Shown one piece after another: positions 2,600 to 57,064 of a DNA stretch of 64,000 nt (positions are counted from its first letter, which is position 1; each line of letters opens with the position of its first letter). Where the stretch lies: the NCBI RefSeq assembly GCF_963678865.1, contig NZ_OY787459.1, positions 3,092,501-3,156,500 on the forward strand. Reading direction: 5' to 3'. The notes beneath the pieces were generated by a model that was given only the letters and a program-made list of their open reading frames with translations, searched no databases and was not told the origin of the DNA. The DNA is from Maridesulfovibrio sp. (lineage in GTDB: Bacteria; Desulfobacterota; Desulfovibrionia; Desulfovibrionales; Desulfovibrionaceae). Made by a program: the position numbers and the translations under genes.

Positions 2600-2626
2600 A
2601 GTCAGGGATAATATTCTGACACAAAG

Positions 2627-2663: not shown

Positions 2664-3730
2664 TATTGAGCTGCTTTCTGCAAGGCTATTGCTCGAAGCT
2701 GCTGCATTTTTGCCTTATCCTGGAGCAGTGCTTTCATGTCCGGGTTGTTGGATATAATGAATGAAATCAAAGAGGTTGTCAGAGAAGTATCGTATTTGGT
2801 CTTGCTTTCTGTAAGGATGATCGCGGCGAGAATGGGGTTAAGGCCGGGCCGATGATGCCGATCTGAAATCATGCCGCAAAATGCGTCTGAAATAGCGCAT
2901 ACCCTTGCTTCCAGGGAAATGGCATCTCCCTTGCGCCCTTTTGGATACCCACTGCCGTCTATGCGTTCATGATGGTCAAAGACACAGGATTTTATGGTTT
3001 CATCGCGTATTTCGAGACGGTTGAGCATCTTTTCAGAAATATCCACATGTTCCTGCATGCGCATTCTTTCTTTGTAAAGTAATTTTGATGGCTTGGCGGA
3101 TACGGCGGACGGGATCTGGGTCATGCCCAAATCGTGGAGGACCAGCCCCATTGCCAGAGGTTTCAGATCCATCTTTTCCCCTGGTTTGTAAATAATTTTC
3201 AGGTAGATGGATGTCCCTACAAAGAGAGTGTTTACGGCATGGCAGCAGATATCTTTTTCTCTTTTCAGGGTATTGAAAAAAAATGTCCATCTGTTTGGGT
3301 CCACCCATACGTATTCGCAGAAAACTGCGAGTACAGTATTAAGTTCGGAGAGGGTTTCCCCTATGGGATTGGAATAAAATGCACGTACCTTTTCCAATAC
3401 TCCATCATAGAAAATTTCTGCTGCAGCGGCTTCGTCTAAAAAATGCTCAGTCAACAATGCACCTAGGTTCTGGCTGATGTGTCCGGCCAGTGAAGCATAA
3501 TCCTCTTTGGAGATGAACAGGTTTCCTTCATTGCAGTAATTGTTTACCAGCTCCTGTTTCTTGTCTGAAAGTCTGGTGCCTTTGGAAAAAAGAGGAACGA
3601 CGCGTTGGAATTCATCATCATGTATACATAATGATACCGGAAGTTTACTCCCGAAGGTATTCAATATGTTGAAACTGATTTGCAGGAATTCTTCTAATCC
3701 GGCATTCTGGTTCTCGGTGTCGCTACTCAT
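2663..3730 (-). CDS. HD-GYP domain protein, probable cyclic-di-GMP phosphodiesterase
   Basis: 355 aa, cytosolic. The N-terminal half has no recognised domain. The C-terminal half is an HD-GYP domain with the HD pair at about residue 199 (LHDLGM), followed by HHERIDGSGYP at about 253-263 and AISDAFCGM. HD-GYP enzymes hydrolyse cyclic di-GMP, and the metal ligands and GYP triad are all present, so activity is likely. No receiver or sensor domain is fused, so the unknown N-terminal region probably carries the input. It is transcribed alone; about 200 bp upstream has no other gene. Confidence 0.88.
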   Translation of the reverse strand: MSSDTENQNAGLEEFLQISFNILNTFGSKLPVSLCIHDDEFQRVVPLFSKGTRLSDKKQELVNNYCNEGNLFISKEDYASLAGHISQNLGALLTEHFLDEAAAAEIFYDGVLEKVRAFYSNPIGETLSELNTVLAVFCEYVWVDPNRWTFFFNTLKREKDICCHAVNTLFVGTSIYLKIIYKPGEKMDLKPLAMGLVLHDLGMTQIPSAVSAKPSKLLYKERMRMQEHVDISEKMLNRLEIRDETIKSCVFDHHERIDGSGYPKGRKGDAISLEARVCAISDAFCGMISDRHHRPGLNPILAAIILTESKTKYDTSLTTSLISFIISNNPDMKALLQDKAKMQQLRAIALQKAAQ

Positions 3731-25059: not shown

Positions 25060-25146
25060 GCCGGGATGGCGGAATTGGTAGACGCAGCGGACTCAAAATC
25101 CGCCGGGTTCACGCCCTTGCGAGTTCGAGTCTCGCTCCCGGTACCA
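25060..25146 (+). tRNA. tRNA-Leu (CAA)
   Basis: 87 nt including the encoded CCA. Acceptor GCCGGGA pairs with TCCCGGT; the anticodon loop CTCAAAA gives CAA (25094-25096). A long variable arm and T-loop GTTCGAGTC are present. Its 3' 56 bases form the attachment site of the adjacent element. Confidence 0.97.
25091..25146 (+). repeat. attL of IME1 (3' part of tRNA-Leu)
   Basis: 56 bp, from the anticodon loop to the CCA end, identical to 41959-42014. The match starts and ends sharply, as expected for a recombined attachment core that keeps the tRNA whole. Confidence 0.95.
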
Positions 25147-30486: not shown

Positions 30487-32117
30487 ACGAGTCCGGCACA
30501 GACATTCTTTCCATGTTCGGAAATAAGGCCCCAGTTCCATTGGGGCCTCAGTTTCCTCCTTCTCTATCATCGGTTCAATTACCGCCGATTCTGGCTGATT
30601 ACAGCTTTGAGCTTAGCGAAGCGTTGCAGGTGCCTTATGAGATGGTGCTCTGCAATCTCCTTGGCGTCCTATCAACCGCAGCGCAGCGGAGGTTCCATGT
30701 GCAGATTAAAGAAGGTTATGAGGAATCCTTAAACCTGTACCTGCTTTCGCCGCTACCGCCCGGAGAAAGGAAAAGCGCGGTGACGCAGGCCGCAAGAAGA
30801 CCGCTTATCGGCTGGGAAAATGAGCAGGAAAAGCTCATTGGTCCACTGGCGCAGGAAGCGCGTTCAAAACGGATGACTCTTGAACGCGCCATTGAGCATC
30901 GGCGCAACATGGCGGCCAAGGCAAAAAACTCGCAAAGCCGGGACAACCTCATTCAGGAAATCCGGGATTTGGAAGATGAAATGCCGGAGCTGATTACAAT
31001 CCCGCTCTTGCTTGCCGATGACATAACTCCTGAATGCCTTGCCATGCTCATGGAGCAGCAAAGCGAATGCATGTCCATCATTGAAGCTGAAGGCGGTCTT
31101 TTTGATACATTTGCCGGTCGTTACAGCCGCATGCCTAACCTTGATCTGATTTTAAAAGCATTCAGTGGCGAACCGTGCCGCGTGGACCGTAAGCATGGGC
31201 AGTTTATCGGCCTGAAGCATCCACTGTTAACTATCTGCGTTACCACTCAGCCGGATGTGTTGCGTGGAATGGCCGGAAATCCTGAATTCCGTGGACGCGG
31301 TTTCTTGGCGCGTTTCCTCTATTTCTTTGGTCAAAGCAGGCTTGGTTATCGAGTGGCGGAGCCTCCGCAGGTATCATTACAGGTGGAACGAGCTTTTCTA
31401 GAGCGGGTTGAGTTTCTGCTTTCTCTCAAAAGTAATTCTGAAATGAATGCACAAGGTAAGTCTCTGCTGCTTAGTGCCGGAGCTTATGAGTCGTGGAAAA
31501 ACTTTTTCCTGCTCATTGAGGGAGAGTTGCGACCGGGGAGTAGTCTGGAAAATATGACTGATTGGGCGGGTAAGGTTCCGGGGCCGGTTGCCCGCTTGGC
31601 CGGTCTGCTGCATCTGGCTTCAGCGCAACAGGTTGAGTCGAAGGTTGATTCCGCTGTCATGCTTGCGGCTACTGAATTGGGAAAGAAGCTTGTTCATCAT
31701 GCCCGCTACGCATTTCATGATATGGGGTGTGATGATCTGACTTCCTGTGCTCAGGCTATCTTGAAATGGATCACGGGCCGCAAAATTGAGCTGTTCACTG
31801 GTCGTGAATGTCAGCGTGCGATCCGTGGACGGTTTCCGAAAAAGAAGCAGATTGAGCAGGGACTAACCATGCTCGTGGAGTTCGGATATGTGGTTGTGCT
31901 TCCGGTGCAATCTTCCGGTCCGGGGCGTCCTCCGAGTCCGAGTTACCAAGTTCATCCGGCTGTGCATGCTGCCGAAGCTATCCCAATATCGAATCCTAGC
32001 CAGCCTACCCACTGTGACACTGTTAGCTGCGCAACAGGTGTCCCCGTGGGGGCTGGCGAGGGAGGCAAGCCTCCCTTCGAACCCTCCGTTTACGCCAGAA
32101 AAATGGAGGCCGTATGA
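30483..32117 (+). CDS. DUF3987/YfjI-like replication-type protein
   Basis: 544 aa. It resembles the helicase-like half of plasmid and island replication proteins (DUF3987), with LSPLPPGERKSAVTQAA near 90 as the P-loop-like segment and a C-terminal winged helix. The paralogue in IME2 (46528-48051) has the same role but carries a prim-pol front, missing here. Overlaps both neighbours by ATGA. The 3' end of the gene contains the oriT-like site. Confidence 0.85.
   Translation: MNESGTDILSMFGNKAPVPLGPQFPPSLSSVQLPPILADYSFELSEALQVPYEMVLCNLLGVLSTAAQRRFHVQIKEGYEESLNLYLLSPLPPGERKSAVTQAARRPLIGWENEQEKLIGPLAQEARSKRMTLERAIEHRRNMAAKAKNSQSRDNLIQEIRDLEDEMPELITIPLLLADDITPECLAMLMEQQSECMSIIEAEGGLFDTFAGRYSRMPNLDLILKAFSGEPCRVDRKHGQFIGLKHPLLTICVTTQPDVLRGMAGNPEFRGRGFLARFLYFFGQSRLGYRVAEPPQVSLQVERAFLERVEFLLSLKSNSEMNAQGKSLLLSAGAYESWKNFFLLIEGELRPGSSLENMTDWAGKVPGPVARLAGLLHLASAQQVESKVDSAVMLAATELGKKLVHHARYAFHDMGCDDLTSCAQAILKWITGRKIELFTGRECQRAIRGRFPKKKQIEQGLTMLVEFGYVVVLPVQSSGPGRPPSPSYQVHPAVHAAEAIPISNPSQPTHCDTVSCATGVPVGAGEGGKPPFEPSVYARKMEAV
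31998..32087 (+). promoter_or_regulatory. Probable oriT of IME1
   Basis: AGCCAGCCTACCCA, a hairpin (CCCAC / GTGGG), then GGGGCTGGCGAGGGAGG and CCTCCCTTCGAACCCTC. The flanks are nearly identical in IME2 (48219-48303), also just upstream of mobC, while the hairpin bases differ but still pair. It overlaps the end of the DUF3987 frame. Confidence 0.7.
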
Positions 32118-32410
32118 GCACGGCCCGCACTAGATGGTTGAATGTCCGGGTTACGCCGGATGAGAAAAATAGCGTTGTGGAAGAAGCAGAAGCCAAGGGC
32201 ATGACCATCGGTGATTTCATGCGTCAGCTTCTGGGTAAAAGACGAGTACGCAAGACCAGACGTGAGCGGGAGAAGCTTCTTCACCTTGCCCGTATTGGCA
32301 ACAACATCAATCAGCTCGCTCGCTGGGCAAATACCTATAAGAGCAATGCCGATTCCGTTCTCATCCTCGCCGAACTGGCTGCCATTGAGAGGGAGCTGAA
32401 ATGTATATGA
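32114..32410 (+). CDS. mobC: MobC-like relaxosome accessory protein
   Basis: 98 aa, basic, ribbon-helix-helix-like N-terminus (RWLNVRVTPDEKNSVV) and the MobC core REKLLHLARIGNNINQLARWAN. It would bind oriT and help the relaxase nick. ATGA overlap with the previous gene, and its end overlaps the relaxase start by 10 bp. Close paralogue at 48318-48617. Confidence 0.9.
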   Translation: MSTARTRWLNVRVTPDEKNSVVEEAEAKGMTIGDFMRQLLGKRRVRKTRREREKLLHLARIGNNINQLARWANTYKSNADSVLILAELAAIERELKCI

Positions 32411-33603
32411 AGGTTTTCGCCCATGGCCGGGGAAACGGAGCCAAGGCCATTGATTATGTAATTGATCCCCGGCGCAAAGGGCGAGAAGAATCGCCGCCGG
32501 AAGTTTTGCGCGGTGATCCTGAAGCCGTACAGCGGGTGATTGGTTCAACTTATCGGGTATGGAAGTTTACATCCGGGGTGCTCTCATGGGCACCGCAGGA
32601 CAAGGTTTCCCCGCAGCTTGAAAAAGAAGTGATGGACGACTTTGAAAAGGTCGCTTTCGCAGGACTTGAGCCGGATCAATATTCGATTCTTTGGGTCAGG
32701 CACAGCCATGCCGGTCATCATGAAATGCATTTCATTATCCCGCGCACCGAATTGCGCAGTGACAAGGCCATGAATCCATGCCCGCCCAACTGGCATAAGC
32801 AATATGATGTCTGGCGCGACCTTTGGAATGAGCGCATGGAGTGGGCAAAGCCTGATGAGCTAAAGCGATCCCGGTTGTTGCAACCCGGCAAAGACATTCA
32901 TTCACCCAAAGGAAAACAACTGCACAATTTCAGGAAAACCGTAACCGATTTCCTAGCTCAAGGCATAGCTGACGGTCTGCACAAGGACCGTGCGGATCTG
33001 GTCAAGGCTTTGGAGGAAGAAGGGCTTTCCGTGGTCCGGCAGGGCAAGAAGTATATCACCTTGGAGTTACCCGAAGACAAGACACGAGTCCGATTGAAGG
33101 GAGGAATATATGAATCATCTTGGAGAGCTAAGCGACAAACTGAAAGAGCGAATGAACTCGCAGTCGCAGGAAGTAGAGCAGATCGCCAGCAGCGCATTGA
33201 AAGACTTGAGCGGGAACTTGCTGAAATATGCCGAAAGCGAGCTGAATTCCATCACAGCAGATATGGACGGCCACATCCAGAAGCTCAGGAAAAAGCAGTC
33301 CGCGATTTCGGCAAGCTACTGGAAACAAAACATTTTGGTGAACATCGTATCCGTGCTGCTGTTACTCATAATGTCGGTCTGCATAACCGGATTTTACGGT
33401 TGGAGAATCAAGGCCAGCCACGAAGAGCTGACAAGAATCAACGCGCAGGTAGAGAGTCAGAGAAAGAACATAAGCAAATTTACGGAATGGGGGATCAAGG
33501 CATATCAGACCGAAGAGCAGCAGTATCTGATTTTCCCAAGGGGATAAATCTGAAAATCGCACAGACAAACAGCGGCCAGCCAGCCGTTTTATTGCAGAGG
33601 TAG
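32401..33603 (+). CDS. MOBP-type relaxase with altered C-terminus
   Basis: 400 aa. N-terminal relaxase domain with motif III HSHAGHHEMHFIIPR (about 98-112); it would nick oriT and pilot the strand. It is 86 residues shorter than the IME2 paralogue. A one-base deletion near 33535 shifts it into the frame of the nested gene, so its last ~23 residues (GINLKIAQTNSGQPAVLLQR) are the homologue of the IME2 nested protein's tail. The catalytic half is intact. Confidence 0.9.
   Translation: MYMKVFAHGRGNGAKAIDYVIDPRRKGREESPPEVLRGDPEAVQRVIGSTYRVWKFTSGVLSWAPQDKVSPQLEKEVMDDFEKVAFAGLEPDQYSILWVRHSHAGHHEMHFIIPRTELRSDKAMNPCPPNWHKQYDVWRDLWNERMEWAKPDELKRSRLLQPGKDIHSPKGKQLHNFRKTVTDFLAQGIADGLHKDRADLVKALEEEGLSVVRQGKKYITLELPEDKTRVRLKGGIYESSWRAKRQTERANELAVAGSRADRQQRIERLERELAEICRKRAEFHHSRYGRPHPEAQEKAVRDFGKLLETKHFGEHRIRAAVTHNVGLHNRILRLENQGQPRRADKNQRAGRESEKEHKQIYGMGDQGISDRRAAVSDFPKGINLKIAQTNSGQPAVLLQR
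33110..33547 (+). CDS. MbeB-like mobilization protein nested in the relaxase gene
   Basis: 145 aa in the +1 frame inside the relaxase gene, like ColE1 mbeB inside mbeA. GGGAGG lies six bases before the ATG. Coiled-coil N-terminus, one TM helix at about 85-105 (VSVLLLLIMSVCITGFYGWRI). The IME2 copy (49314-49808) is alignable along its length, showing that this frame is maintained. It is cut short by the same one-base deletion that changes the relaxase tail. Confidence 0.85.
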   Translation: MNHLGELSDKLKERMNSQSQEVEQIASSALKDLSGNLLKYAESELNSITADMDGHIQKLRKKQSAISASYWKQNILVNIVSVLLLLIMSVCITGFYGWRIKASHEELTRINAQVESQRKNISKFTEWGIKAYQTEEQQYLIFPRG

Positions 33604-33606
33604 ATC

Positions 33607-33807
33607 ATGAACGAGTTATCAAGGAGCTTGTCGGAGGCCCTAGCCGGAATGGAGAAGGAGCAGTCCCGCCGCTTGAAAGAGCAGGATCAGAAAATAGCCG
33701 AGCAGGGGCGCAGGATATCGGATCTGGAAAAGGAAGTTCAGGGTTGCCGGGACTTGCAGAGCGAATTGGAAGGTGTTTTGCGGAAGCTTACGAGGTTGCG
33801 CGGGTGA
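33607..33807 (+). CDS. MbeD-like small coiled-coil mobilization protein
   Basis: 66 aa, heptad-like helix (LKEQDQKIAEQGRRISDLEKEVQ). Starts 3 bp after the relaxase stop here, but is inside the relaxase frame in IME2. Comparable to ColE1 MbeD, the entry-exclusion or accessory mobilization protein. Homologues at 49812-50030 and a decayed one near 56800. Confidence 0.8.
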   Translation: MNELSRSLSEALAGMEKEQSRRLKEQDQKIAEQGRRISDLEKEVQGCRDLQSELEGVLRKLTRLRG

Positions 33808-33897: not shown

Positions 33898-35925
33898 TTA
33901 CCTACGTAGTTTGTTGCGTAGGGCGAAGGCGAAGAGCGCTGCTTGGACAGCTATGAGTATACGTCCGAGACCATGAATAAGTATAGATAGGTAGGATGTC
34001 TCAGAACTTGTTTGCGTCAAAGGTAAATAGTTAACAGTGTCTTTGATCCATTGAGGATCTTTGTAAGTTGTTAAATCGATAGGTATAAATGCTGGTAACA
34101 ATATGAAAATAGTAAGCCAAATTAAAGCTCTTAATGGTTTTTCTCCGTAGCCACTAATTAAATTGTATATTGAATAGTATGTTATTGCGAATAATTGTTC
34201 AGATTTTTTGTATAACTTAAAAATTAATACAATAGGGGTTAAGTAGGCTAGGATACCAACAGAAAAGGGGATATCATAATAGGTCAGGCACAGAGATGAA
34301 ATTATGACAGCTAAAACAAGAAAGAAGTGGCACATAAAGTCTTGATGTAAAATTGTGCGTACATTTTTGGCCTGCATTTCTTTTTCTTTGTAATGCCAGT
34401 GTGACGTTTGTACTTCATCTGATCCATCTTTAGCAATTCTTTTCAAACGTCTGTAAGTTGATTCTAGGGTTGAGTTAGCAAGTTTATCGCTCTTGTTTTT
34501 GGGGTTTTCATTATAAAGGGGGCCATATTTGTTTTTGTCCTTATGCCAAAGGCACTCAATAAATTGAAATGATTCAATATTCATTCTTTTTAATGAAACA
34601 TTACACATGTTAGCTCTTTCAAAAATTATTTTTTGACCACTGATAGTGTTTTCAAAAGTTGCTATTGACTTGAAGGTTGTATCTTTAAAATATACCCAAG
34701 AATCAAATGTGCAATTGTTTACCATGCAGCAATAGTGCTGATTGGGATTAGATTTATTTTCTATTTCATTATGTGTGGTGTTAGAAAAATCAGCAAGTTT
34801 TTTAAAGGAACAACTGAGTATTTGAAATCCATTATATGAGTTGCCGTTAAATTGAACCATGTCATCAAAGTGGGAGTTCCCAATGTATAAGCGACATCTA
34901 CCAAACATTCCTGAAAAAAAAGATGGACTATTAAAATAGCTATATCTAATCCTAATAATATTTATATTTGCATGGGCGAACATGATTTCTTTTTTAAAGA
35001 TACAATCTTCAATTATTAGGCGTTTAGACGTATTTGCTTCTGCAAAAACAATATTTTTATGAAATTGTGTTCCTACTAATTTGGCTTCAATGAATTTTGA
35101 TTTTTTAAAAGAAGACATTCCAAGGAAATCACAGCTTGTAATTTTTATTGTGCTATTAAATATGCATCTACCAAGGTCAAATGCGTCATTGACGATGTTT
35201 CTAATGAAAGAAAATTCATCATTAAAAATGGTTCTATTAAAATCTAAAAATGTGCATTTCTTTTCAAAATGACAGTGTTTAAATTTAATTTTAGCATTAA
35301 AGAGACAACGCCCATACGAGACGTCATCTTTGAATGTAATGTTGAAAAAAGAACAACCACAACTTATGCCCAAATCTTCAAGGGATTGAGGATAATCATA
35401 GCAGTATATACTTCTTTCTGGATTGGATTGGTAATCAAATGTCGAACCATCAAAATGAACAGGTCCATTAAAAGTATTGTTTGCAAAAATAACTGGGTCT
35501 TCAAAGACGGTATGAAAAAAACATGTCTGCACTTCAAATATGCAATCTGAAAAATCGACGATACCTTTGAATTTGCATTCATCAAATTTTATAGCAGGAA
35601 GTTTATCGATAGATTCAAAAGTAATATCCCAAGGGAATATGGTTCCTGCTAAATTACACCTTGGATCATTTGCCCACCACGTATAATTGCCTTGCCATTC
35701 ATCTGCTCCGCTTTGTATGCATTTTTTTATTTTTGAAAGAACAAATGTATTGAAGTCGGTGTCGGACACCAGTTCCGGGCGCTGCCCTTTGCCTTCAACA
35801 TAAAGTTTGGAGTATTTATGCTCGGCAGGAGCATGGAAGAGACAGTATTCTTTACCTTTACTGTCTTTATAGACGATATCTTCTCCCGCGCACCAACCGA
35901 ACTTTGCATCCATACAACAGGCCAT
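33898..35925 (-). CDS. Pentapeptide-repeat protein with C-terminal membrane domain
   Basis: 675 aa from the ATG at 35925 (GGAG upstream). A Cys-rich N-terminus (ACCMDAKFGWC ... CLFHAP) may bind metal. Residues ~90-470 are pentapeptide repeats rich in F and C (KFDECKFKGIVDFSDCIF), forming a right-handed beta helix. Four TM helices near 520-675, with NLISGYGEKPLRAL, resemble ion-channel-linked pentapeptide proteins but lack a clear selectivity filter. AT-rich IME1 cargo. A defence or toxin role is possible but unproven. Confidence 0.85.
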   Translation of the reverse strand: MACCMDAKFGWCAGEDIVYKDSKGKEYCLFHAPAEHKYSKLYVEGKGQRPELVSDTDFNTFVLSKIKKCIQSGADEWQGNYTWWANDPRCNLAGTIFPWDITFESIDKLPAIKFDECKFKGIVDFSDCIFEVQTCFFHTVFEDPVIFANNTFNGPVHFDGSTFDYQSNPERSIYCYDYPQSLEDLGISCGCSFFNITFKDDVSYGRCLFNAKIKFKHCHFEKKCTFLDFNRTIFNDEFSFIRNIVNDAFDLGRCIFNSTIKITSCDFLGMSSFKKSKFIEAKLVGTQFHKNIVFAEANTSKRLIIEDCIFKKEIMFAHANINIIRIRYSYFNSPSFFSGMFGRCRLYIGNSHFDDMVQFNGNSYNGFQILSCSFKKLADFSNTTHNEIENKSNPNQHYCCMVNNCTFDSWVYFKDTTFKSIATFENTISGQKIIFERANMCNVSLKRMNIESFQFIECLWHKDKNKYGPLYNENPKNKSDKLANSTLESTYRRLKRIAKDGSDEVQTSHWHYKEKEMQAKNVRTILHQDFMCHFFLVLAVIISSLCLTYYDIPFSVGILAYLTPIVLIFKLYKKSEQLFAITYYSIYNLISGYGEKPLRALIWLTIFILLPAFIPIDLTTYKDPQWIKDTVNYLPLTQTSSETSYLSILIHGLGRILIAVQAALFAFALRNKLRR

Positions 35926-35931
35926 ATCCAA

Positions 35932-36151: not shown

Positions 36152-37150
36152 ATGCCAACCTACCACCCACCCCACACAATAACCCCACTCATCGTAAATC
36201 TGATAGCCCAGATAAGCGAGGAAGTAGGGCGTTTGACCGTTTTAACCGATAACTCAAAGGAGTTAAGGCTAAGACGTATCAACCGTGTGCGCACAATTCG
36301 CGGATCACTGGCTATTGAAGGTAACAACCTTAGCGAAGAACAGATAACAGCGATTCTGGACGGCAAAAGAGTAATAGCTCCGCCTCGTGAGATTCAGGAG
36401 GTGCATAACGCCATTGCTGCTTATGATCGGTTCGATGATTGGTCGGTAGAGAGCGAAGCGGATTTGAAAGAAGCGCACAGCGTGCTCATGGCCGGACTGA
36501 TTGACGAGGTTGGCATGTATCGCCGTTCCGGTGTGGGCGTGATCGCAGGGGAGAGGGTGATTCACATGGCCCCGCCTGCCGATAGAGTCCCGGCACTGAT
36601 GCAGGATCTATTTTCATGGCTGGGTGCCACTGACGACCATCCTTTGATTGCCAGCTCGGTCTTCCACTACGAATTTGAATTTATCCACCCCTTTGCGGAC
36701 GGCAACGGTCGTATGGGCCGTTTATGGCAGACTTTGATCCTGAAAGGATGGAATCCACTTTTCGCGGATATCCCGGTGGAAAGTCTGGTTTTCGAACACC
36801 AAGAAGAATATTATGACGCTCTCCAGCAGAGCACGAATAAGGCGGACTCGGCACCCTTTATAGAGTTCATGCTCAGGATGATTTTGAATGCCGTTTCATC
36901 TGCCACCCCCCAAGTTGACCCCCAAGTTGCCCCCCAAGTTAAAGCATTGATTGAAGTCATTTCTGGCGAAATGAGCCGTGATGAGCTGCAAACGGCTTTG
37001 AGCCTTAAAGACCGCAAGTCATTCAGGGAACTTTACCTCAAACCTGCATTGGAAGAAGGGCTTGTTGAAATGACCATTCCCGATAAGCCCAATAGTAGAA
37101 ATCAGAAGTATCGGTTGACTGAGATGGGGCAACTTGCTGTATATCGCTAA
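36152..37150 (+). CDS. Fic/DOC family adenylyltransferase, class II
   Basis: 332 aa. Catalytic loop HPFADGNGRMGR at about 178-189 is complete. The N-terminal inhibitory helix motif S-x-x-x-E-G (SLAIEGN) is present, so activity should be self-restrained. A Fic N-terminal domain and C-terminal winged helix (GEMSRDELQTALSL) complete the common DUF4172-like layout. A PQV repeat (PQVDPQVAPQV) is a linker with short DNA repeats. Such enzymes AMPylate proteins; target unknown. IS insertion starts 137 bp downstream. Confidence 0.92.
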   Translation: MPTYHPPHTITPLIVNLIAQISEEVGRLTVLTDNSKELRLRRINRVRTIRGSLAIEGNNLSEEQITAILDGKRVIAPPREIQEVHNAIAAYDRFDDWSVESEADLKEAHSVLMAGLIDEVGMYRRSGVGVIAGERVIHMAPPADRVPALMQDLFSWLGATDDHPLIASSVFHYEFEFIHPFADGNGRMGRLWQTLILKGWNPLFADIPVESLVFEHQEEYYDALQQSTNKADSAPFIEFMLRMILNAVSSATPQVDPQVAPQVKALIEVISGEMSRDELQTALSLKDRKSFRELYLKPALEEGLVEMTIPDKPNSRNQKYRLTEMGQLAVYR

Positions 37151-37287: not shown

Positions 37288-38474
37288 ACTTGATCTGACA
37301 TTTCCTCTTGAAACAGAAGAGGTTCTCCTTTTTGATGGGAATACTAAGGAACCATCAAAACAGGGCACCGTGCCCAAGGAGAACCACATGTCCAGTTTCA
37401 ATCAAAACATCATAAAACACAAGATAGGTCTGCTGAATCTGGCGGAAGAACTCGGTAATGTTTCCAGAGCTTGCAAGCTGATGGGCTTTTCTCGGGACAC
37501 CTTTTACCGGTATCATTCAGCCAAGGAAGAAGGCGGTGTGGAAGCACTTTTTGATAAGTCCCGTCGTAAACCGAACCTGAAGAATCGGGTAGATCAGGCA
37601 ATCGAAGACGCAGTTGTTGTTTACGCAACTGACTTTCCTGCTCATGGACAAACAAGAACCAGTAATGAGCTAAGAAAGTTGGGCGTTTTTGTTTCGCCTT
37701 CAGGAGTTAGATCCATTTGGCTCCGGCACAATCTCCATAATTTCAAGCTCCGGTTGACTGCGCTGGAGAAGATTTCAGCAGAGCAAGGAGTTGTACTCAC
37801 CGAGGCGCAGGTTCAGGCCCTTGAGAAGAAAAAGGATGATGATTTGGCCTGCGGTGAAATCGAAACAGCCCATCCTGGCTATCTGGGTAGTCAGGACACC
37901 TTCTATGTCGGCACAATCAAAGGCGTTGGGCGGATCTATCAGCAGACTTTTGTGGACACCTATTCCAAGTGGGCAGCCGCAAAGCTCTACACAACCAAAA
38001 CGCCGATCACTGCAGCCGATATGCTCAACGACAAGGTCCTTCCTTTCTTCGCGGAGAAGGAGATGGGCATTTTGCGCATGTTGACCGATAGGGGAACCGA
38101 GTACTGCGGATGCGTTGAGAAACACGATTACGAGCTGTTTCTTGGCGTTTGCGGCATTGAGCACACAAAGGCTAAGGCACGTCATCCGCAAACAAATGGG
38201 ATTTGCGAACGTTTCCACAAAACAATTCTGGATGAATTTTACAGGGTCACGTTCAGGCGCAAGATCTACACTTCACTGGAAGAATTGCAGGCTGATCTCG
38301 ATATCTGGATTGATGAATACAACACACAACGATCTCATCAGGGAAAAATGTGTTGCGGTCGAACACCACTGGCAACTATGCTGGATGGAAAAGAACTCTG
38401 GAACGACAAGGTTCTGAGTTTAAACTAAACTGACAATTTCGGTCCCATCAAAAAGGCGGACTGTCAGATCAAGT
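37288..38474 (+). mobile_element. IS481-family insertion sequence
   Basis: 1187 bp with ends ACTTGATCTGACA / TGTCAGATCAAGT as inverted repeats, and a further inward shared stretch CTTTTTGATGGGA. One transposase gene. No target-site duplication is recognised; a 10-bp ACAACTTATC on both sides is not at the ends. Confidence 0.85.
37388..38428 (+). CDS. IS481-family transposase
   Basis: 346 aa from the ATG at 37388 (AGGAG upstream). HTH N-terminus (SRACKLMGFSRDTFYRY), rve/DDE domain with D in SQDTFYVG, D in LTDRGTEYCG, and E in NGICERFHKTI. Full length, no interruptions, so it may be active. Confidence 0.93.
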   Translation: MSSFNQNIIKHKIGLLNLAEELGNVSRACKLMGFSRDTFYRYHSAKEEGGVEALFDKSRRKPNLKNRVDQAIEDAVVVYATDFPAHGQTRTSNELRKLGVFVSPSGVRSIWLRHNLHNFKLRLTALEKISAEQGVVLTEAQVQALEKKKDDDLACGEIETAHPGYLGSQDTFYVGTIKGVGRIYQQTFVDTYSKWAAAKLYTTKTPITAADMLNDKVLPFFAEKEMGILRMLTDRGTEYCGCVEKHDYELFLGVCGIEHTKAKARHPQTNGICERFHKTILDEFYRVTFRRKIYTSLEELQADLDIWIDEYNTQRSHQGKMCCGRTPLATMLDGKELWNDKVLSLN

Positions 38475-40593: not shown

Positions 40594-41727
40594 TTAAGCG
40601 TGAGTCTTCTTCTGCATCACCCTATACATATCCCCAGCAACCTCACTGGCCCGCTGCATGGCGTCATCCCGTAAGTGGGCATATCTTTGAACCATTGATG
40701 GGGTCTTGTGGGTGAGCAATTTTTGCAGAGTATACATATCTACCTGCCCGGAGCTGGCAAGAGTGGAAGCGAATACATGACGTAGTCCGTGCATGGGCCG
40801 GAAGTCTTTGGGCAGACCTGCATTATCGCAGATACGGCGAAAGGGGATGCGCATTTCTTTTGTTGGACCGTTCTTTCTGCCGGGAAAAATGTATTCACTT
40901 TTTCTGGGCTGTCTTTCTAAAACAGATCTTGCTGAGTTATTTAAAGGTATACGTTGGTCTGTTCCATTTTTAGGATCTCCCAGCGTGATGAAGCCACGGT
41001 TTAAATCAATGTCATTCCATCTCAGCTTAAAGATTTCTCCTTTTCTCATGCCTGTGTATAGTGCCATAAGCATCATGTTCGCAGCGGGCTTATTGGGTGA
41101 AGTTTCAATGGCTTCCATGAGAGCTGAAAGCTGTCCGGGCGTAAGGTCTTCCGTTTTGATGTTATTTATTTTGGGCATTTCGAAGTAAAGCTTTGCCTGA
41201 TTGATTGGCTGACACATCCCCCGTTTGGCTCCGAAATTTAAAATGCGTTTAAGCAGGACAAGTCCCTGCTTGACTGTTCCGGGAGCAAGGCCTTTATTCT
41301 GTAATTTTCGGCGTAGCCGGTCGATGTCGGTGGTGACTACTTCTTCAGGAATCTTTTTCCCGAAATCCTTGAGCAAGTAGCTCTGCCAGCGGTTACGGTC
41401 ATCCTTGATACTTTTGTTTTCTTGTTTAGCGTCATAAAATGCTTCCCAGATCCGGGCAACGGTCATTCTGTTGCGCTCCGCCCGAACTTTCTTCCTTCGC
41501 TCGTTGTTGGAGTCAATTTTCCCCTCAATGCGCAGCACCCGCAAACGGTTCGCCTTGGCAGGTGTCATCTGATCCTGATGCTGGCGTCCGGCTTTTTCTT
41601 CAATGGACTTTCCGTCTTTATAGTAGCGGATGTAATAAATCTTTTCCTATACCCCGGTGACTTGGTTTTTACTATCGATGTAGAACACGCCCTTATATGT
41701 TGTCTTGTGTCTTTTTACTGCGGCCAT
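40594..41727 (-). pseudogene. IME1 tyrosine integrase interrupted by in-frame TAG
   Basis: One open frame from the ATG at 41727 to 40594, broken by TAG at codon 27 (41649-41647). Codons before (MAAVKRHKTTYKGVFYIDSK) and after (EKIYYIRYYKDGKSIEEK) both look like the arm-binding domain of Desulfovibrio-type island integrases. The catalytic domain is complete: R in TGMRKGEI, HGLRH, H and Y in QRYAHL. A shortened form from the ATG at 41568 would lack the arm-binding domain. Confidence 0.88.
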
Positions 41728-41958: not shown

Positions 41959-42014
41959 ACTCAAAATCCGCCGGGTTCACGCCCTTGCGAGTTCGAGTCT
42001 CGCTCCCGGTACCA
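41959..42014 (+). repeat. attR of IME1 / left att of IME2
   Basis: Exact 56-bp copy of the tRNA-Leu 3' end (25091-25146). The upstream tRNA half is absent, so it is not a functional tRNA. Confidence 0.95.
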
Positions 42015-42187: not shown

Positions 42188-42239
42188 ATTTATGTGCTGA
42201 ATAAATGTGTCGCTTAATGAGCTAACGAAGGAATTTTAT

Positions 42240-44846
42240 ATGATCCGTGCTGAATACCAACGATTTATGCAAACCCTTGTCGATAACTCTGTTTCCGATG
42301 ATGTCCGCAAAATAGCTAATCTCGTATTATTTAATTTAGATACACTGATTCCCCTTTCTACAGCCCGCGGACAACGCATAATAAAGATTGTTGAGTTGGC
42401 ACAACTGAATTGGGACAGGCTTAGCACTCAAATTCATACTGATCCTGTCCAAGTTGGTGCACAAACCAGTTCCGCATGTGCGTTAAAGAAAATTTCTGTA
42501 GGTCCATTTCGTGGATTTGCCCAAACTGAAGAATTTGATCTTTCGAATAAAATTGTCCTCATGTATGGGCCAAACGGAACAGGAAAATCAAGCTTTTGCG
42601 AAGCACTTGAATATGGGCTTTTAGGAAGTGTAGCAGAAGCTGATAACAAGAGATTCCGTGATCAAAATAAATATTTGAAAAATGCTTATACCAATAATTT
42701 TGAAGCTCCAGAAATTATTGGGGACAACGATACAAAAATTATTGCCAATGAACCTTTGTATCGTTTTTGTTTCGTTGAAAAGAACCGCATAGATAATTTT
42801 TCGCGTATTGCTGCTCAGGCTCCGGCGAAACAAGGAGAATTGATTTCTACTTTGTTTGGGATGGATGCCTTCAATTCGTTTGTACGCAATTTTAGCGCAG
42901 AGATGGGTAATAATCATATCGATGTCGAAGGATTAAAATCAAAAGAATTGAGCTCGAAGGAGCAGTCTTTAGCGGGGGCGAGAGCACAAAAGAAAGAAGC
43001 CGAAGACGCGTTAAAAAGGCTTGCAGGAGAAGAACAAAATTTAGCTAATCAATATCGTGCAGGCTTAACTTTTCCCCAAATGGAGATCGAGATCAATGGT
43101 AATGGGGAAAAAGCTGGAGCAATAAGTCTTCTGGAAAATGAGTTAGCGCAACCAGTTAACCTCCAAATGGGATTATCTCTAGCAACACTGCAAAGTTTAG
43201 GGAATTCAATTAGGGCTAATGTGTCTGATTTGGCATCAAAGCAACAAATACTTCAAGATGCAAGCGAACAGGTCTCTTTTAAAAATTTATATGAAGCTGT
43301 ACGGCAAACCCAAAATCTCAACGCTGATATATGCCCAGCATGTAAAACACCGCTCACTAGTACTGTTGTGAATCCATATACTCATGCAAGTAGCGAACTT
43401 AAAAAATTGCAACATTTAGCGCAGACGCAAGGGGTTGTCGAAAAATTAAGGCAGGATTTGAATGTTTCTTTGAACGGCGTTTCACACATTATAAATTCAT
43501 GTTGCACATTTTATTCTGAAAATGTGATTTATGCCTATCGTTTGGCTCCTAACTCTCAAGTGTCAAATGAGTGGTGGAATTCATTGAATCAATCTCTCCC
43601 CGAAGGGGGGACTCCATGGCAGCATTTAGAGAGTCAGGTTAAGCAGATTGAAGACAATGACAAAGAAATAGATCAAATTAAGCAAATTCGGGCGAAGAAA
43701 CAACAAGACCTAAACATTCTTCGGCAGTATAACGGCTTAATAATCAAGATAAAGGCACAACACGATTTTGCTCAGCAAAGAATTGTAAAATCTCAAAAGA
43801 CTATTGAAAATTTTAACATTGAAAATGCTCAGCTTATATCAGAAGCAAAATCTGAACAGGTAGTAGTTAAAAGAAATATTTCTATTGCAAGTAGTTATGC
43901 TGATTTTGTGGTTAGATTGAATGCGTATAAAAATGATTTGCCAATTCGTTTAGTTGCTGATTTAAGTGTCTCAGTCGTTGCATTATATAATGCGTTCAAC
44001 CGCAATGATGCAGCAAATGAACGATTGGCAGAAGTGTATTTGCCGTTGGCTCAAAATCAACGGTTAGAAATTTCATTTGAGAATGATCCTGCAAAGCGGT
44101 TTGATGCCTTACATATATTAAGTGAAGGGCATATTCGGTGTCTCGGTCTTGCCATTTTAATGGCTAAAAATTTAAAAGAAAATTGCTCTCTCTTAATTTT
44201 TGATGATCCGGTAAATGCCATTGATGATGATCATAAAGAAGCGATTAGGCGAACTCTTTTTGAAGATGACTTCTTTAATGAGAAGCAAATTATTTTGGCA
44301 TGTCATGGTGAAGAATTTTTCAAAGATATTCAGAATTTATTGCCAAGGGAGGTTGCTTCGCAAGCAAAATTATTTTCCTTTTTGCCTCGACTTGGAGAAC
44401 AGCATGTTCGTGTTGATCCTCATTGTAGGCCACGTAATTATATAATTGCAGCAAATGATTGTCTTGATCGGGGTGAGATCCGTAATGCCTTGGCTAAGTC
44501 GAGGCAGGCTCTCGAATCGCTCACTAAAGGTAAGGTCTGGAGGTATGTAAATAAATATGGAGATAGTAATCTCTCAATTAAAATGCGTTCAGCAACGTCA
44601 CCAATTGAGCTCTACAACCTTACTACTCAACTTAAATCAAAAATAGCAAAAAATGATTTTGGCGATAGCAATAAATTCATCGTACTCACGCCTCTCGACA
44701 CTTTATTAGGTATGAATGGTAATTCTCGTGAATGGAGGTATTTGAATAAGGGGACGCATGATGAAGCAGATCGAGCTGAATTTGATCGTAGCACCGTAAT
44801 TAAAATTGTTAGTATGATTGAAGCTCTTGATTCAGCTCTTCAGTAA
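42240..44846 (+). CDS. SMC/RecF-like ATPase with zinc hook
   Basis: 868 aa. The ATG at 42240 has AAGGA eight bases upstream; a GTG at 42207 would add 11 residues. Walker A GPNGTGKSS at ~110, two coiled-coil arms (~230-300 and ~480-560) joined by a hook CPAC near 366, Walker B LLIFDDPVNAIDDD near 650, and a helical tail with LNKGTHDEADRAEFDR. The layout recalls RloC-type ATPases, but no anticodon-nuclease motif is recognised. Likely anti-phage or DNA-repair role (inference). It leads a two-gene operon. Confidence 0.85.
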   Translation: MIRAEYQRFMQTLVDNSVSDDVRKIANLVLFNLDTLIPLSTARGQRIIKIVELAQLNWDRLSTQIHTDPVQVGAQTSSACALKKISVGPFRGFAQTEEFDLSNKIVLMYGPNGTGKSSFCEALEYGLLGSVAEADNKRFRDQNKYLKNAYTNNFEAPEIIGDNDTKIIANEPLYRFCFVEKNRIDNFSRIAAQAPAKQGELISTLFGMDAFNSFVRNFSAEMGNNHIDVEGLKSKELSSKEQSLAGARAQKKEAEDALKRLAGEEQNLANQYRAGLTFPQMEIEINGNGEKAGAISLLENELAQPVNLQMGLSLATLQSLGNSIRANVSDLASKQQILQDASEQVSFKNLYEAVRQTQNLNADICPACKTPLTSTVVNPYTHASSELKKLQHLAQTQGVVEKLRQDLNVSLNGVSHIINSCCTFYSENVIYAYRLAPNSQVSNEWWNSLNQSLPEGGTPWQHLESQVKQIEDNDKEIDQIKQIRAKKQQDLNILRQYNGLIIKIKAQHDFAQQRIVKSQKTIENFNIENAQLISEAKSEQVVVKRNISIASSYADFVVRLNAYKNDLPIRLVADLSVSVVALYNAFNRNDAANERLAEVYLPLAQNQRLEISFENDPAKRFDALHILSEGHIRCLGLAILMAKNLKENCSLLIFDDPVNAIDDDHKEAIRRTLFEDDFFNEKQIILACHGEEFFKDIQNLLPREVASQAKLFSFLPRLGEQHVRVDPHCRPRNYIIAANDCLDRGEIRNALAKSRQALESLTKGKVWRYVNKYGDSNLSIKMRSATSPIELYNLTTQLKSKIAKNDFGDSNKFIVLTPLDTLLGMNGNSREWRYLNKGTHDEADRAEFDRSTVIKIVSMIEALDSALQ

Positions 44847-48218: not shown

Positions 48219-48303
48219 AGCCAGCCTACCCAATGTCGGACTTTTGCTCCGCAAAAACATTGGGGCTGGTGAGGGAGTTGCTCCGCCTCCCTTCAAACCC
48301 TCT
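48219..48303 (+). promoter_or_regulatory. Probable oriT of IME2
   Basis: AGCCAGCCTACC, hairpin CCAATGT / ACATTGG, then GGGGCTGGTGAGGGAG and CCTCCCTTCAAACCCTC. Flanks match IME1 31998-32087; the hairpin differs in sequence but not in position. Confidence 0.7.
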
Positions 48304-48317
48304 GGATTTTGAAAGAC

Positions 48318-48617
48318 ATGACTGACGCCAAAAAAACTGAAAAATTATCCATGCGAGTTAGTTCGAAGGACAAAGAGTTAATTCTCGCTATGGCTGCTGA
48401 AAGTGGAATGAGCATGGCCGATTTTGTGCGCGTGCGTCTCGGACAGACCAGAGTGCGCCGCAGCAAAATTGAAAGAGAGAAGCTGCTCCATTTGGCTCGC
48501 ATCGGAAATAATTTGAATCAAATTGCACGCTGGGCAAATACGCACAAGAGCGGCGCGGACGCACTCCTAATTCTTGCCGAGCTGACCTCCATCGAGCAGG
48601 AGCTGAAATGTATATGA
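48318..48617 (+). CDS. mobC: MobC-like relaxosome protein of IME2
   Basis: 99 aa from the ATG at 48318. Core REKLLHLARIGNNLNQIARWAN matches the IME1 MobC almost exactly; the N-terminal RHH-like part is more different. It overlaps the relaxase start by ten bases. Confidence 0.9.
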   Translation: MTDAKKTEKLSMRVSSKDKELILAMAAESGMSMADFVRVRLGQTRVRRSKIEREKLLHLARIGNNLNQIARWANTHKSGADALLILAELTSIEQELKCI

Positions 48618-50068
48618 AGGTATTCGCTCATGGTCAGAGTAATGGTGCTCAGGCCGTGGGGTACGTGATTGACCCGAAACGGAAAGGTCGTGAGGAGTCC
48701 CCGCCGCAAGTCCTGCGTGGTGATCCTGAAATGGTCCAACAGGTAATTGGCTCAACAGATCGTAAATGGAAATACACATCCGGTGTGCTGTCTTGGGCTC
48801 CTGAAGACAAAGTCAGCCCTGAAGTTGAGCACAAGGTCATGGACGACTTTGAAAAGATAGCTTTTGCAGGAATGGAGTCGGATCAATATTCCATTCTTTG
48901 GGTTCGGCATAGCCATGCCGGACATCATGAGTTGCATTTCATCATCCCGCGCACTGAGCTTCACCAAGATAAGGCCATGAATCCATGCCCGCCGGGATGG
49001 CAGAAGCAATATGATGTCTGGCGGGATCTTTGGAATGAGCGAATGGAGTGGGCAAGACCGGATGACCCGAAACGGGCGCGAATCTCTCAGCCCGGAAAGG
49101 CAATCCAGTTCAACAACAAGAGTAAAGCAGAATTCAAAGAGCAAATAACCAATCATCTTGCCCAAGGCATTATGAAAGGCATTTATCAAAACAGGAATGA
49201 TTTGATTCAAGCTCTGGAGTCCGCTGGTTTTGCTATCCCGCGCAAAGGTAAAAACTATATAACTCTGGAGTCCCCGCAGGACGGCCAACGCATACGGATG
49301 AAGGGAGGTATATATGCAGCATCTTGGCGAGCTGAGCAACAAATTAAAGGAGCAGGTGGATTCTCAATCCAAGGAGATGGAGCGAGCCGTACAGAGCGTA
49401 TTTCGAGACTTGAGCGAGAGCTTGAAGAAGTGCGCAGCGTCCGAGCTGAATACCATTTCCAAAGATATGGAGGACCGTCTTCAGGAACTCAAGAAAAAGC
49501 AATCCAAGATCTCGGCCCACTACTTGAAACAAAGCATTTTGGTGAACTTCGTGTCCGCACTGTTGTTGGTCATAATATCAGTTTGTGTGACCGGATTCTA
49601 CGGATGGAGAATCAAGGAAAAGCATCTGGAGTTAACAAACATCAACGCGCAAATAGCAATCCAGAAGAAGAAAGAAAGCAAATTTACGAAATGGGGCATC
49701 AACGCCTACCAGAACGACAGTCAGAAATATCTGGTCTTCCCCAAAGGGATACAGCTGAAAATTGTCCAGACAAACAACGGCCAGCCAGCCGTTTTACTTA
49801 CGAGGTAAATCATGAACGAGTTAAGTCGGAGCTTATCGGAGACGCTCAGACGGTTAAGCGAGGAGCAAAGGCAAAAGCTCAAAGATCAGGATCGCAAGAT
49901 AGCCGAGCAAGGACAAAGGATTTCCGAACTGGAGCAGGAGGTCCAAGGTTGTCAGGATTTGCTAAGCGGATTGGAAGGTGTTTTGAGAGAGTTGGAGGCG
50001 TTGTCCGGGCGTTTGCGCGGCGGGCGGTGAAAACGAAACAAGTAAATAACCAGGGGCCAAGTCTTTAA
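48608..50068 (+). CDS. MOBP-type relaxase of IME2
   Basis: 486 aa. Same N-terminal relaxase domain (HSHAGHHELHFIIPR) as IME1, with a longer basic C-terminus that lies over the nested mbeB- and mbeD-like genes. This appears to be the ancestral length. It would nick oriT at 48219-48303. Confidence 0.92.
   Translation: MYMKVFAHGQSNGAQAVGYVIDPKRKGREESPPQVLRGDPEMVQQVIGSTDRKWKYTSGVLSWAPEDKVSPEVEHKVMDDFEKIAFAGMESDQYSILWVRHSHAGHHELHFIIPRTELHQDKAMNPCPPGWQKQYDVWRDLWNERMEWARPDDPKRARISQPGKAIQFNNKSKAEFKEQITNHLAQGIMKGIYQNRNDLIQALESAGFAIPRKGKNYITLESPQDGQRIRMKGGIYAASWRAEQQIKGAGGFSIQGDGASRTERISRLERELEEVRSVRAEYHFQRYGGPSSGTQEKAIQDLGPLLETKHFGELRVRTVVGHNISLCDRILRMENQGKASGVNKHQRANSNPEEERKQIYEMGHQRLPERQSEISGLPQRDTAENCPDKQRPASRFTYEVNHERVKSELIGDAQTVKRGAKAKAQRSGSQDSRARTKDFRTGAGGPRLSGFAKRIGRCFERVGGVVRAFARRAVKTKQVNNQGPSL
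49314..49808 (+). CDS. MbeB-like protein nested in the relaxase gene of IME2
   Basis: 164 aa in the +1 frame of the relaxase. GGGAGG six bases before the ATG. Helical N-terminus, TM helix (VSALLLVIISVCVTGFYGWRI), soluble tail ending IVQTNNGQPAVLLTR. It ends three bases before the mbeD-like start. Same frame, position and ribosome site as in IME1. Confidence 0.87.
   Translation: MQHLGELSNKLKEQVDSQSKEMERAVQSVFRDLSESLKKCAASELNTISKDMEDRLQELKKKQSKISAHYLKQSILVNFVSALLLVIISVCVTGFYGWRIKEKHLELTNINAQIAIQKKKESKFTKWGINAYQNDSQKYLVFPKGIQLKIVQTNNGQPAVLLTR
49812..50030 (+). CDS. MbeD-like protein nested in the relaxase gene of IME2
   Basis: 72 aa coiled coil (LKDQDRKIAEQGQRISELEQEVQ), wholly inside the 3' end of the relaxase gene in the +1 frame, following mbeB by 3 bp. 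Homologue of 33607-33807. Confidence 0.82.
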   Translation: MNELSRSLSETLRRLSEEQRQKLKDQDRKIAEQGQRISELEQEVQGCQDLLSGLEGVLRELEALSGRLRGGR

Positions 50069-50481: not shown

Positions 50482-50542
50482 CTTTTTAAAAGAGCATATG
50501 TACGTCTGGAGAGTCAAATTAGTCAGTTAAATGAGGTTGGTT

Positions 50543-55411: not shown

Positions 55412-56599
55412 CTAGTTTTCTAAAACGGCCACCGCAGCTTTCAAATTATCCGGTGCAAGATGGGCATACCGTTCTGTCATAGCCAGAGTGGAATGGCCCA
55501 TGAGCTTTGCCACGGTATAAAGTGGAGTGCCCCGCTGAACTAACCAGCTTGCGAAAGTATGGCGCAGGGTATGGAAAACAACCTTCTGCCTACGGTCGTC
55601 GATACCGACATTTAGACCAAGCTCGTCGACAGCCTCATTGAACAGTCTGGATACCTCATTGAGCTTTTTACCGCGTTGTGCACTGAAGACCGGCTTTTGG
55701 TCAGGGTCAATTTGCTTGCGCAGTTCTCGGAGCTCTTTCTTTACCTGTTTGGTCATGAAGGCGTGTCGTGAGAAACCATTCTTGGCGTCACGTATCAGGA
55801 TCATGTCTTCTGCAAAGTTCAGATCCTTCCATTCAAGATCGATGATTTCGCCCGCTCTAAGGCCGCAGTAAAGGGAAACTAAAGAAACGCAATGCTGCAG
55901 GGGATTTCTTTCCAGCAATACACCAAGAAGCTGGTCAGCTTCATCTTCTGACAGGAAACGCGTCCGACGGTTATCCATCTTGGGCATTTTGATTTTTTTG
56001 ACCGGATTGTCACCTTTGAAAATATCCAGATTCTTGGCGACATTGTATACTTGGCGCACGGTCGCAAGGGCATACTGTATGGAGCGGGGGCTACGTCCCT
56101 TTTCAGACATATTGGTTTTGATCTTTTCAAGGTCGGTCGCTGATACACAGGCAAAAGGGCAGTCGCCTATGGCAGGTGAGATCCAGATGCGGTGTAGGCT
56201 TTCTTCTCGCTTCCATGATTTGGCCGCTTTGTTGGCTTCTGCTTGCGGTCGATAGAATTGAGCCCAGATTTCATCAAAGGTGATGCTTTTGTCTTTCTCG
56301 GCTCTATCGCGTGCTTCCTGCTCTTCGAGTTCAGCGGCGGCCATCTCTTTTTTCTGCTTCAGCGTCTGGGGAAATTTGCCTTGCGTCTGGTTGACCTTAA
56401 GCTCACTGAGAACGTTCGCAGCATCTTGAGCTTTAACGCCTTGACTGGCCCAGCCTATGGACTCGGTTTCGGTCTTCCCTTTATACTTGTAAGTGATGGT
56501 AAAGTACTTGTCCGGCTGAATGCCGTGCTTGCGGGTTTCGTGTTCCCGGTAACGTACTCCGGGGTACTTCGTTTTGTTCCACTTAGGTCTCGTTGCCAT
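55412..56599 (-). CDS. Tyrosine integrase of IME2
   Basis: 395 aa. Start at the ATG 56599 (MATRPKWNKTKYPGVRYREH), with GGAGG upstream; N-terminal AP2-like arm-binding domain, SAM-like core-binding domain, catalytic R in CGLRAGEIIDL, HTLRH, H and Y in TERYAHL. Intact, so IME2 may still move and perhaps help IME1. The gene lies beside its element end, pointing inward. Confidence 0.93.
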   Translation of the reverse strand: MATRPKWNKTKYPGVRYREHETRKHGIQPDKYFTITYKYKGKTETESIGWASQGVKAQDAANVLSELKVNQTQGKFPQTLKQKKEMAAAELEEQEARDRAEKDKSITFDEIWAQFYRPQAEANKAAKSWKREESLHRIWISPAIGDCPFACVSATDLEKIKTNMSEKGRSPRSIQYALATVRQVYNVAKNLDIFKGDNPVKKIKMPKMDNRRTRFLSEDEADQLLGVLLERNPLQHCVSLVSLYCGLRAGEIIDLEWKDLNFAEDMILIRDAKNGFSRHAFMTKQVKKELRELRKQIDPDQKPVFSAQRGKKLNEVSRLFNEAVDELGLNVGIDDRRQKVVFHTLRHTFASWLVQRGTPLYTVAKLMGHSTLAMTERYAHLAPDNLKAAVAVLEN

Positions 56600-56613
56600 C
56601 ATTACCTCCAATT

Positions 56614-56639: not shown

Positions 56640-57064
56640 GAGGTGAATTGAAATCAGAACCTTTTGTTGGAGATATTCATGGTGATTGGGCCTCGTTTAA
56701 TTAACTGATTGATTAACATCAGTCTCAAGTGATTCTTCAGTGTGGTGATTTTGGAAACTGGCCGGGAAAAAAATGTTGTTCTCCTGCAATTAATATTGAA
56801 CATACAAGGAATTTCACGCCGTTTAAAAGGGCAGGATCAGAAAATAGTCGAGCGGGGACGCAGTATTTCGGAGCCGGAAAAGGAAGTTAAGGGGTTCCGG
56901 GACTTACAGAGCGAATTGTGGCGCTTGTGCTGGGGGCAGGGGGACTTAGATTGAAACGATTCAAAATGAAAAGTATTCAAAGATAAAGAACTCGTTTTTT
57001 CTTTTATTATAAATGCAGATAAGCCAGAGCTGGATTTATTTGTTGAAAGGTTCCGTGTCTCACA
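56640..57064. other. 425-bp region to the right of IME2
   Basis: Contains a decayed mbeD-like fragment (56800-56950) and AT-rich sequence; no tRNA-like att core is visible. No intact gene. Confidence 0.6.
56800..56950 (+). pseudogene. Decayed mbeD-like fragment from a third element
   Basis: LKGQDQKIVERGRSIS, EPEKEVKGFRDLQSELW align with LKEQDQKIAEQGRRIS, DLEKEVQGCRDLQSELE of the IME1 MbeD-like protein, and the DNA is clearly homologous. No relaxase around it. The 56742 ORF start is not original. Confidence 0.75.

Follow-up and report, generated by a model that had tools for sequence, protein, structure and literature searches.

The window analysed here is a 64,000-nt stretch of a Maridesulfovibrio sp. 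genome (assembly GCF_963678865.1, contig NZ_OY787459.1, positions 3,092,501 to 3,156,500 of the forward strand). It contains two neighbouring putative integrative mobilizable elements, IME A and IME B, whose features are collected in Table 1. IME A is located at a tRNA-Leu(CAA) gene (25060-25146) and has one integrase, one relaxase and a pair of 56-nt tRNA-Leu repeats. IME B directly adjoins IME A; it contains a relaxase and its own integrase.

Table 1. Features of the mobilisation regions and borders of IME A and IME B (window coordinates)
Feature	Position	Strand	Basis or remark
Left att repeat, IME A (3' 56 nt of tRNA-Leu(CAA))	25091..25146	+	exact direct repeat
Candidate oriT, IME A (putative)	31998..32090	.	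conserved element upstream of mobC
mobC/mbeC, IME A	32114..32410	+	Pfam NikA-like 1e-16, MobC 2e-12
Relaxase gene, IME A, 400 aa, C-terminally truncated	32401..33603	+	Pfam Relaxase 1e-8; alignment with copy B
mbeB ribosome site AAGGGAGG, IME A	33097..33104	+	encoded in relaxase codons K-G-G
mbeB-like gene, IME A, +1 frame of relaxase, truncated, 145 aa	33110..33547	+	
1-nt deletion hitting both frames, IME A	33531..33539	+	A versus B alignment
mbeD-like coiled-coil gene, IME A, 66 aa	33607..33807	+	downstream of truncated relaxase
Tyrosine integrase, IME A	40594..41568	-	Pfam Phage_integrase E=4e-31
Right att repeat, IME A	41959..42014	+	exact 56-nt match to left repeat
Candidate oriT, IME B (putative)	48219..48300	.	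conserved element upstream of mobC
mobC/mbeC, IME B	48309..48617	+	Pfam NikA-like 5e-13, MobC 1e-11
Relaxase gene, IME B, full length, 486 aa	48608..50068	+	
mbeB ribosome site AAGGGAGG, IME B	49301..49308	+	
mbeB-like gene, IME B, nested in relaxase +1 frame, 164 aa	49314..49808	+	
mbeD-like coiled-coil gene, IME B, nested in relaxase +1 frame, 72 aa	49812..50030	+	
Tyrosine integrase, IME B	55412..56611	-	Pfam Phage_integrase E=2e-31

The nested cassette of IME B is intact. The relaxase gene overlaps mobC by 10 nt; its 3' half accommodates the mbeB-like gene and, starting 3 nt past the mbeB stop, the mbeD-like gene. In the AlphaFold model, which is of moderate confidence (pLDDT 75, pTM 0.27), the MbeB-like protein of IME B is composed of one long helix, with the transmembrane (TM) segment at residues 75-93, followed by four β-strands. 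The search for relatives of the nested protein among solved structures gave none.

Like that of IME B, the relaxase gene of IME A starts inside the 3' end of mobC, with an overlap of 10 nt, and its MbeB-like protein has one strong TM segment at residues 75-93 (KD 2.76). Different from IME B, the mbeD-like ORF of IME A lies outside the relaxase gene and begins 3 nt past the relaxase stop. Alignment of the two copies located a 1-nt deletion in IME A within 33531-33539, where A reads TTTTCCCAAGGGG and IME B reads TCTTCCCCAAAGGG. This single deletion puts the relaxase in the frame of MbeB and truncates both proteins: the relaxase is 86 codons short (400 versus 486 aa) and MbeB is reduced to 145 aa, compared to 164 aa in IME B. 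Over its last 27 residues, the A relaxase shares 70% identity with the C-terminal end of the B nested protein. The mbeD of IME A is not nested, owing to the frameshift and the early end of the relaxase. The MbeB residues lost from IME A correspond mostly to the last two of the four C-terminal strands in the moderate-confidence B model. When genome contigs were scanned with the relaxase, a single named relative emerged, Desulfovibrio sp. UBA2564 (L077); this closest named relative is intact, with a relaxase of 480 aa and nested proteins of 164 and 66 aa. IME A therefore carries a normal type of cassette that has been damaged. The original prediction had placed a nested TM gene and then a nested coiled-coil gene in both elements; the TM gene is indeed nested in both, whereas the coiled-coil gene is nested in IME B and not in IME A. 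The predicted ribosome site ahead of the first nested gene was found in both copies (AAGGGAGG, 5 nt, ATG), and the second frame, described as kept between the diverged copies, encodes MbeB proteins that are 62% identical between A and B.

The nested proteins were compared with the mobilisation proteins of plasmids. With tblastn, the TM protein of IME B matched 213 plasmid records; the best plasmid matches are MbeB genes, covering 96-99% of the query with 28-30% identity and E-values of about 1e-4. A profile built from 32 nested TM proteins was aligned by hhalign with a profile of five plasmid MbeBs, giving a probability of 99.7% and E=8e-27 over 160 columns, full length and including the C-terminal WG-x-...-FLVLPKG block. 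For the coiled-coil proteins and plasmid MbeD, the values were 96% and E=4.7e-9, and the MxELE start is common to both; the mismatched control, MbeD-like against MbeB, gave 14%. Single members scored much lower. Only 2 of the 32 TM proteins matched the Pfam MbeB_N model (PF04837), which covers just 52 positions at the N terminus of MbeB, and the best E-value (1.4e-3) did not reach the curated cut-off. Single coiled-coil members likewise stayed below the Pfam MbeD_MobD cut-off, and weak single-sequence matches to NCBIfam MbeD were seen in 7 of 27 members (best 5e-5). We discarded such single-protein scans (Pfam, NCBIfam, PHROGs) as proof of MbeB or MbeD membership, since they return mostly coiled-coil noise. 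Profile comparison and tblastn indicate that the nested genes are homologues of ColE1 mbeB and mbeD. A domain search of the nested proteins, as had been suggested for them, succeeded between profiles and stayed below the cut-offs for single proteins.

ColE1 (NC_001371) has the same gene order, mbeC-mbeA/mbeB/mbeD, with protein homology of all parts. Its mbeC-mbeA overlap is 11 nt, compared to 10 nt in both islands; its mbeB likewise lies in the +1 frame and starts from the KG(A/G)xY motif, and its mbeD follows mbeB after a gap of 6 nt, compared to 3 nt in the islands. This bears out the proposal that the ColE1 mbeA/B/D arrangement is present on chromosomal elements. ColE1 requires MbeB and MbeD for its mobilisation. 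Different from ColE1, which is a small plasmid, the islands are chromosomal IMEs with a tyrosine integrase, at tRNA-Leu, and no exc genes came to notice close to them. The MOBQ plasmid RSF1010/R1162 is a parallel in arrangement: the gene of its membrane-associated MobB is overprinted on that of the relaxase MobA, which belongs to a different relaxase family. Further cases are the ColE-like kanamycin-resistance plasmid pSNC3-Kan, on which mobA (1659-3212) contains the 'internally encoded' mobB (2347-2865, beginning 688 nt into mobA) and mobD (2872-3105) (PMC9282650), and the MOBP5 modules of the Paracoccus plasmids pMARC2 and pAES4, whose mobA, mobB and mobC are three overlapping ORFs (PMC3832669). 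pSNC3-Kan differs from the islands in being an enterobacterial plasmid with a ColE-type MOBP5 relaxase (HQD-x4-ELNF motif), whereas pMARC2 and pAES4 are alphaproteobacterial plasmids whose overlap is known from annotation only. Overprinted mobB and mobD are already published for plasmids; the island copies are new members with an evolutionary twist.

The mbeB start is built into the relaxase. Both its ribosome site and its ATG are encoded within the relaxase motif RLKG(G/A)xY, and the start lies 19 nt into this motif at most loci of Desulfovibrio-type bacteria as well as in ColE1, Rahnella, Neisseria, Pasteurella, Yoonia, Chondrocystis and others; in ColE1 the motif reads RLKGAFYE (AAAGGAGCATTTTATG). 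In Paracoccus the start is 37 nt into the motif, and in Rippkaea it is a GTG at 22 nt. All 52 mbeB starts compared (52/52) have an anti-Shine-Dalgarno match of at least 4 nt and 40/52 have one of at least 5 nt, compared to 9% of background ATGs with at least 5 nt. In nearly all loci compared across lineages, mbeD begins 0-6 nt after mbeB.

Among 199 genomes searched within the same family, 50 contain the relaxase, and 47 loci of this family, some of them near-identical, carry the entire cassette in intact form. These have a relaxase of >440 aa, a +1-frame TM gene of 161-183 aa, a coiled-coil gene and a relaxase stop slightly beyond; the coiled-coil gene follows the TM-gene stop by 3 nt in nearly all 47. 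The genome of the window contains a third intact copy at 532 kb (L003), and no paralogues of the nested genes were found in this genome beyond the three relaxase loci. One frame or the other is broken in L010, L020, L030, L032, L053 and L064. One lineage (L055-L059) has lost the overprinted mbeB and kept the overprinted mbeD; its mbeB ATG is gone (TAT-G changed to TAC-G or TTT), its relaxase is shortened to 402-404 aa, and its mbeD-like ORF (MTETERML...) lies in the +1 frame, preceded in L055-L058 by AGGAGG or GGAGG. Homologous relaxase genes were checked for stops in the nested frame; these proved not to be frequent, the exceptions being the loss of mbeB in L055-L059 and the scattered broken copies. 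A phylum-wide search with the relaxase alignment added few further carriers, one of them in another family. The cassette also occurs on plasmids of alpha-, beta- and gammaproteobacteria and of cyanobacteria: the nested pair, with its start 19 nt into the motif, was found on plasmids of Rahnella, E. coli, Klebsiella, Citrobacter, Aeromonas, Arsenophonus, Pasteurella, Yoonia and Chondrocystis, and mbeB on the gonococcal cryptic plasmid. The nested pair was not found in those relaxases of A. baumannii and Psychrobacter that were tested, and a search of viral contigs with the TM protein gave no match.

To measure selection, every pairwise difference was classed by its effect in both frames in three groups of loci. 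In the nested frame, dNN/dNS is 0.38 [0.31-0.45], 0.59 and 0.60 for the TM gene and 0.42, 0.33 and 0.66 for the coiled-coil gene. By this measure the unused third frame gives at least 1, and the register of the nested frame gives 0.68-0.94 upstream, outside the overlap. As the upstream control is below 1 in one clade (0.68), part of the nested-frame signal is composition or codon structure; in that clade the overlap value is 0.38, and the two intervals do not overlap. The relaxase frame behaves differently: its NN/SN is 0.12-0.20 upstream versus 0.7-1.25 in the overlap, and its pN/pS is 0.06-0.13 in the N-domain versus 0.95-1.34 in the tail. In L055-L058, which lack mbeB, the relaxase pN/pS is 0.62. 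Within the overlap, purifying selection acts on the nested frames; the relaxase evolves almost neutrally at the amino-acid level, with its frame kept open. Of the expectation that both frames are constrained, the half concerning the nested frame stands at the sequence level; the relaxase frame is constrained mainly to openness. Codon usage is ambiguous as a clue to the older frame, with the nested frame favoured in the family set and no clear difference in the genus set.

These values raise the alternative that the C-terminal half of the relaxase is itself a chance frame, with a functional relaxase of only the N-terminal ~250 aa and an unneeded tail. The near-neutral evolution of the tail agrees with it, as do the stop in the L032 tail beside an intact mbeB and mbeD, the broken relaxase frames of L020 and L064 beside an intact mbeB, and the shorter relaxases of L055-L059. 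However, 3-10 stops are expected in the relaxase frame when the amino acids of the nested proteins are fixed, and all 47 intact loci have this frame open. Moreover, on the cyanobacterial plasmid pP880103 the relaxase frame runs past mbeB into DUF3991 and Toprim domains and so must be read through, there at least, and similar-looking RG-x-[GS]-[ML]-[GS]-R ends are seen across phyla. We consider an unneeded tail unlikely.

Such short C-terminal tails were noticed on many relaxases of different phyla, in the forms GPSLGW, RGPSMGR, RGRGLSR, RGPGMGR, RGMGR and QGPSL (L070, L076, L074, L075, L017, L026, L043, L077 and window positions 50051-50065); they are possibly a secretion signal.

In MOB-HEN relaxases, of which ColE1 MbeA is the prototype, an HEN motif III replaces the canonical three-histidine motif (PMC12857230). 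Different from ColE1 (H-x6-E-L-N-F), the window relaxases carry HSHAGHHE[LM]HF, that is, the canonical 3-His motif III (H-x-H-x4-E-[LM]-H-F), by which their assignment to MOB-HEN is ruled out; the overprint is thus wider than MOB-HEN. Most of the relaxases compared also have the canonical form, and H-x6-ELNF was seen, among those tested, only in ColE1, Citrobacter, Klebsiella, Neisseria and Pasteurella. The window relaxases have the MobA/VirD2-type Relaxase domain (PF03432) and the MobC/NikA-like partner of the MOBP class, and related plasmid relaxases are typed as MOBP in PLSDB. The distances of the relaxase N-domain and of MbeB agree (Mantel r=0.76, 0/999 permutations), as expected if the two have long been co-inherited. 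The simplest reading of these comparisons is that the overprint is older than the HEN clade, while horizontal transfer of the whole operon may account for the same distribution. It is conceivable, although we lean slightly against so broad a claim, that the overprint is among the oldest and widest long same-strand overlaps of bacteria: it would have been present, before HEN arose, in a 3-His MOBP ancestor of the relaxases of cyanobacteria, Desulfovibrio-type bacteria and Proteobacteria, with the mbeB ribosome site fixed in the relaxase motif and, with selection on the nested proteins, the C-terminal half of the relaxase as a slave frame that is only held open, a read-through linker to a short C-terminal tail or a Toprim domain.

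The homology, the geometry, the selection on the nested frame and the co-inheritance are established computationally. The locus is very probably a ColE1-type mobC-mobA operon with overprinted mbeB and mbeD, which yields four proteins per mRNA, has MbeB and MbeD serving the relaxosome in mobilisation, and keeps the relaxase tail mainly as read-through. For translation, membrane tethering and mobilisation, we infer the following course. One mRNA would give MobC, MbeB and MbeD as well as the relaxase, the latter initiated at its own start. MbeB would start at the internal Shine-Dalgarno and ATG built into the relaxase codons RLKGG(I)Y, and MbeD, 3 nt past the MbeB stop, would be made by re-initiation or coupling. 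With its coiled-coil, single TM segment and small C-terminal β domain, MbeB would most likely tether the relaxosome to the inner membrane and the coupling protein, assisted by the coiled-coil MbeD; the modelled anatomy, one long coiled helix with one TM segment and a small β domain, suits such a tether. The island would then leave via the type IV secretion channel of a conjugative element. The C-terminal half of the relaxase would serve mostly as a flexible tail made by read-through; MbeB and MbeD would dictate its sequence, and its frame would have to stay open.

Alternatively, the nested genes could be translated and have a role in plasmid or element exclusion, or in another process, rather than in relaxosome tethering. 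The NCBIfam name of the MbeD family, mobilization/exclusion, points in this direction; the fact that they are strictly linked to the relaxase and co-inherited with it, together with the lack of paralogues outside the three relaxase loci of the genome, favours the relaxosome role and makes the other one improbable. That the nested ORFs are chance open frames without a product, conserved through the relaxase sequence alone, can practically be dismissed: when synonymous codons are resampled without altering the relaxase protein, about 0-30% of resamplings per locus (5% for copy B) keep the nested frame free of stops, so a single open frame is weak evidence, but the frame is actually open at 47 loci and in many divergent lineages, purifying selection acts on it and not on the relaxase frame, the proteins are full-length homologues of annotated plasmid MbeB and MbeD, and Shine-Dalgarno matches are enriched at the mbeB starts.

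With the ColE1-type operon as the preferred reading, chromosomal islands of Desulfovibrio-type bacteria make use of the ColE1 mobilisation design. Overlaps are usually judged by the longer annotated frame; here, in the overlap, the amino-acid constraint lies on the nested genes, with the long frame as passenger. The cassette offers a clean natural test of overprinting, with many copies, intact and broken, the loss of mbeB with mbeD kept, and a ribosome site that sits within a protein motif. Public annotation often retains only one of the overlapping frames (L097, L102, L104; PLSDB rows e.g. H85-H103), and as a result relaxase-based mobility typing can miss such elements. Many plasmids with a clear relaxase match have no relaxase listed in the PLSDB gene table, which is itself incomplete.

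Upstream of mobC, AGCCAGCCTACCC...GGGGCTGGCGAGGGAG...CTCCCTTCGA is common to both IMEs and their relatives. A hairpin-like element before mobC, AGCCAGCCTACCCAATGT...ACATTGGGGCTGG[CT]GAGGGAG...CTCCCTTCGAACCC, was observed in both IMEs and in L003, L007, L011, L013, L017 and others; by its position and conservation, it is the candidate oriT of this IME family. Just past the IME B integrase, at 56814-56918, lies an mbeD remnant that is 86% identical to the mbeD of IME A, a hint that the array includes a third element, now decayed.

Both islands also carry cargo. In IME A (33898-35931, 36152-37150 and 37370-38428) this comprises a minus-strand ORF whose C-terminal part is hydrophobic, a protein of Fic-like type (HPFADGNGR) and an ORF resembling a DDE integrase/transposase. 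IME B encodes an SMC/AAA-type protein (42207-44846) and, in a Gabija-like layout, an OLD-like TOPRIM ATPase (50531-52642) followed by a UvrD-type helicase (52642-54750); these are possibly defence genes.
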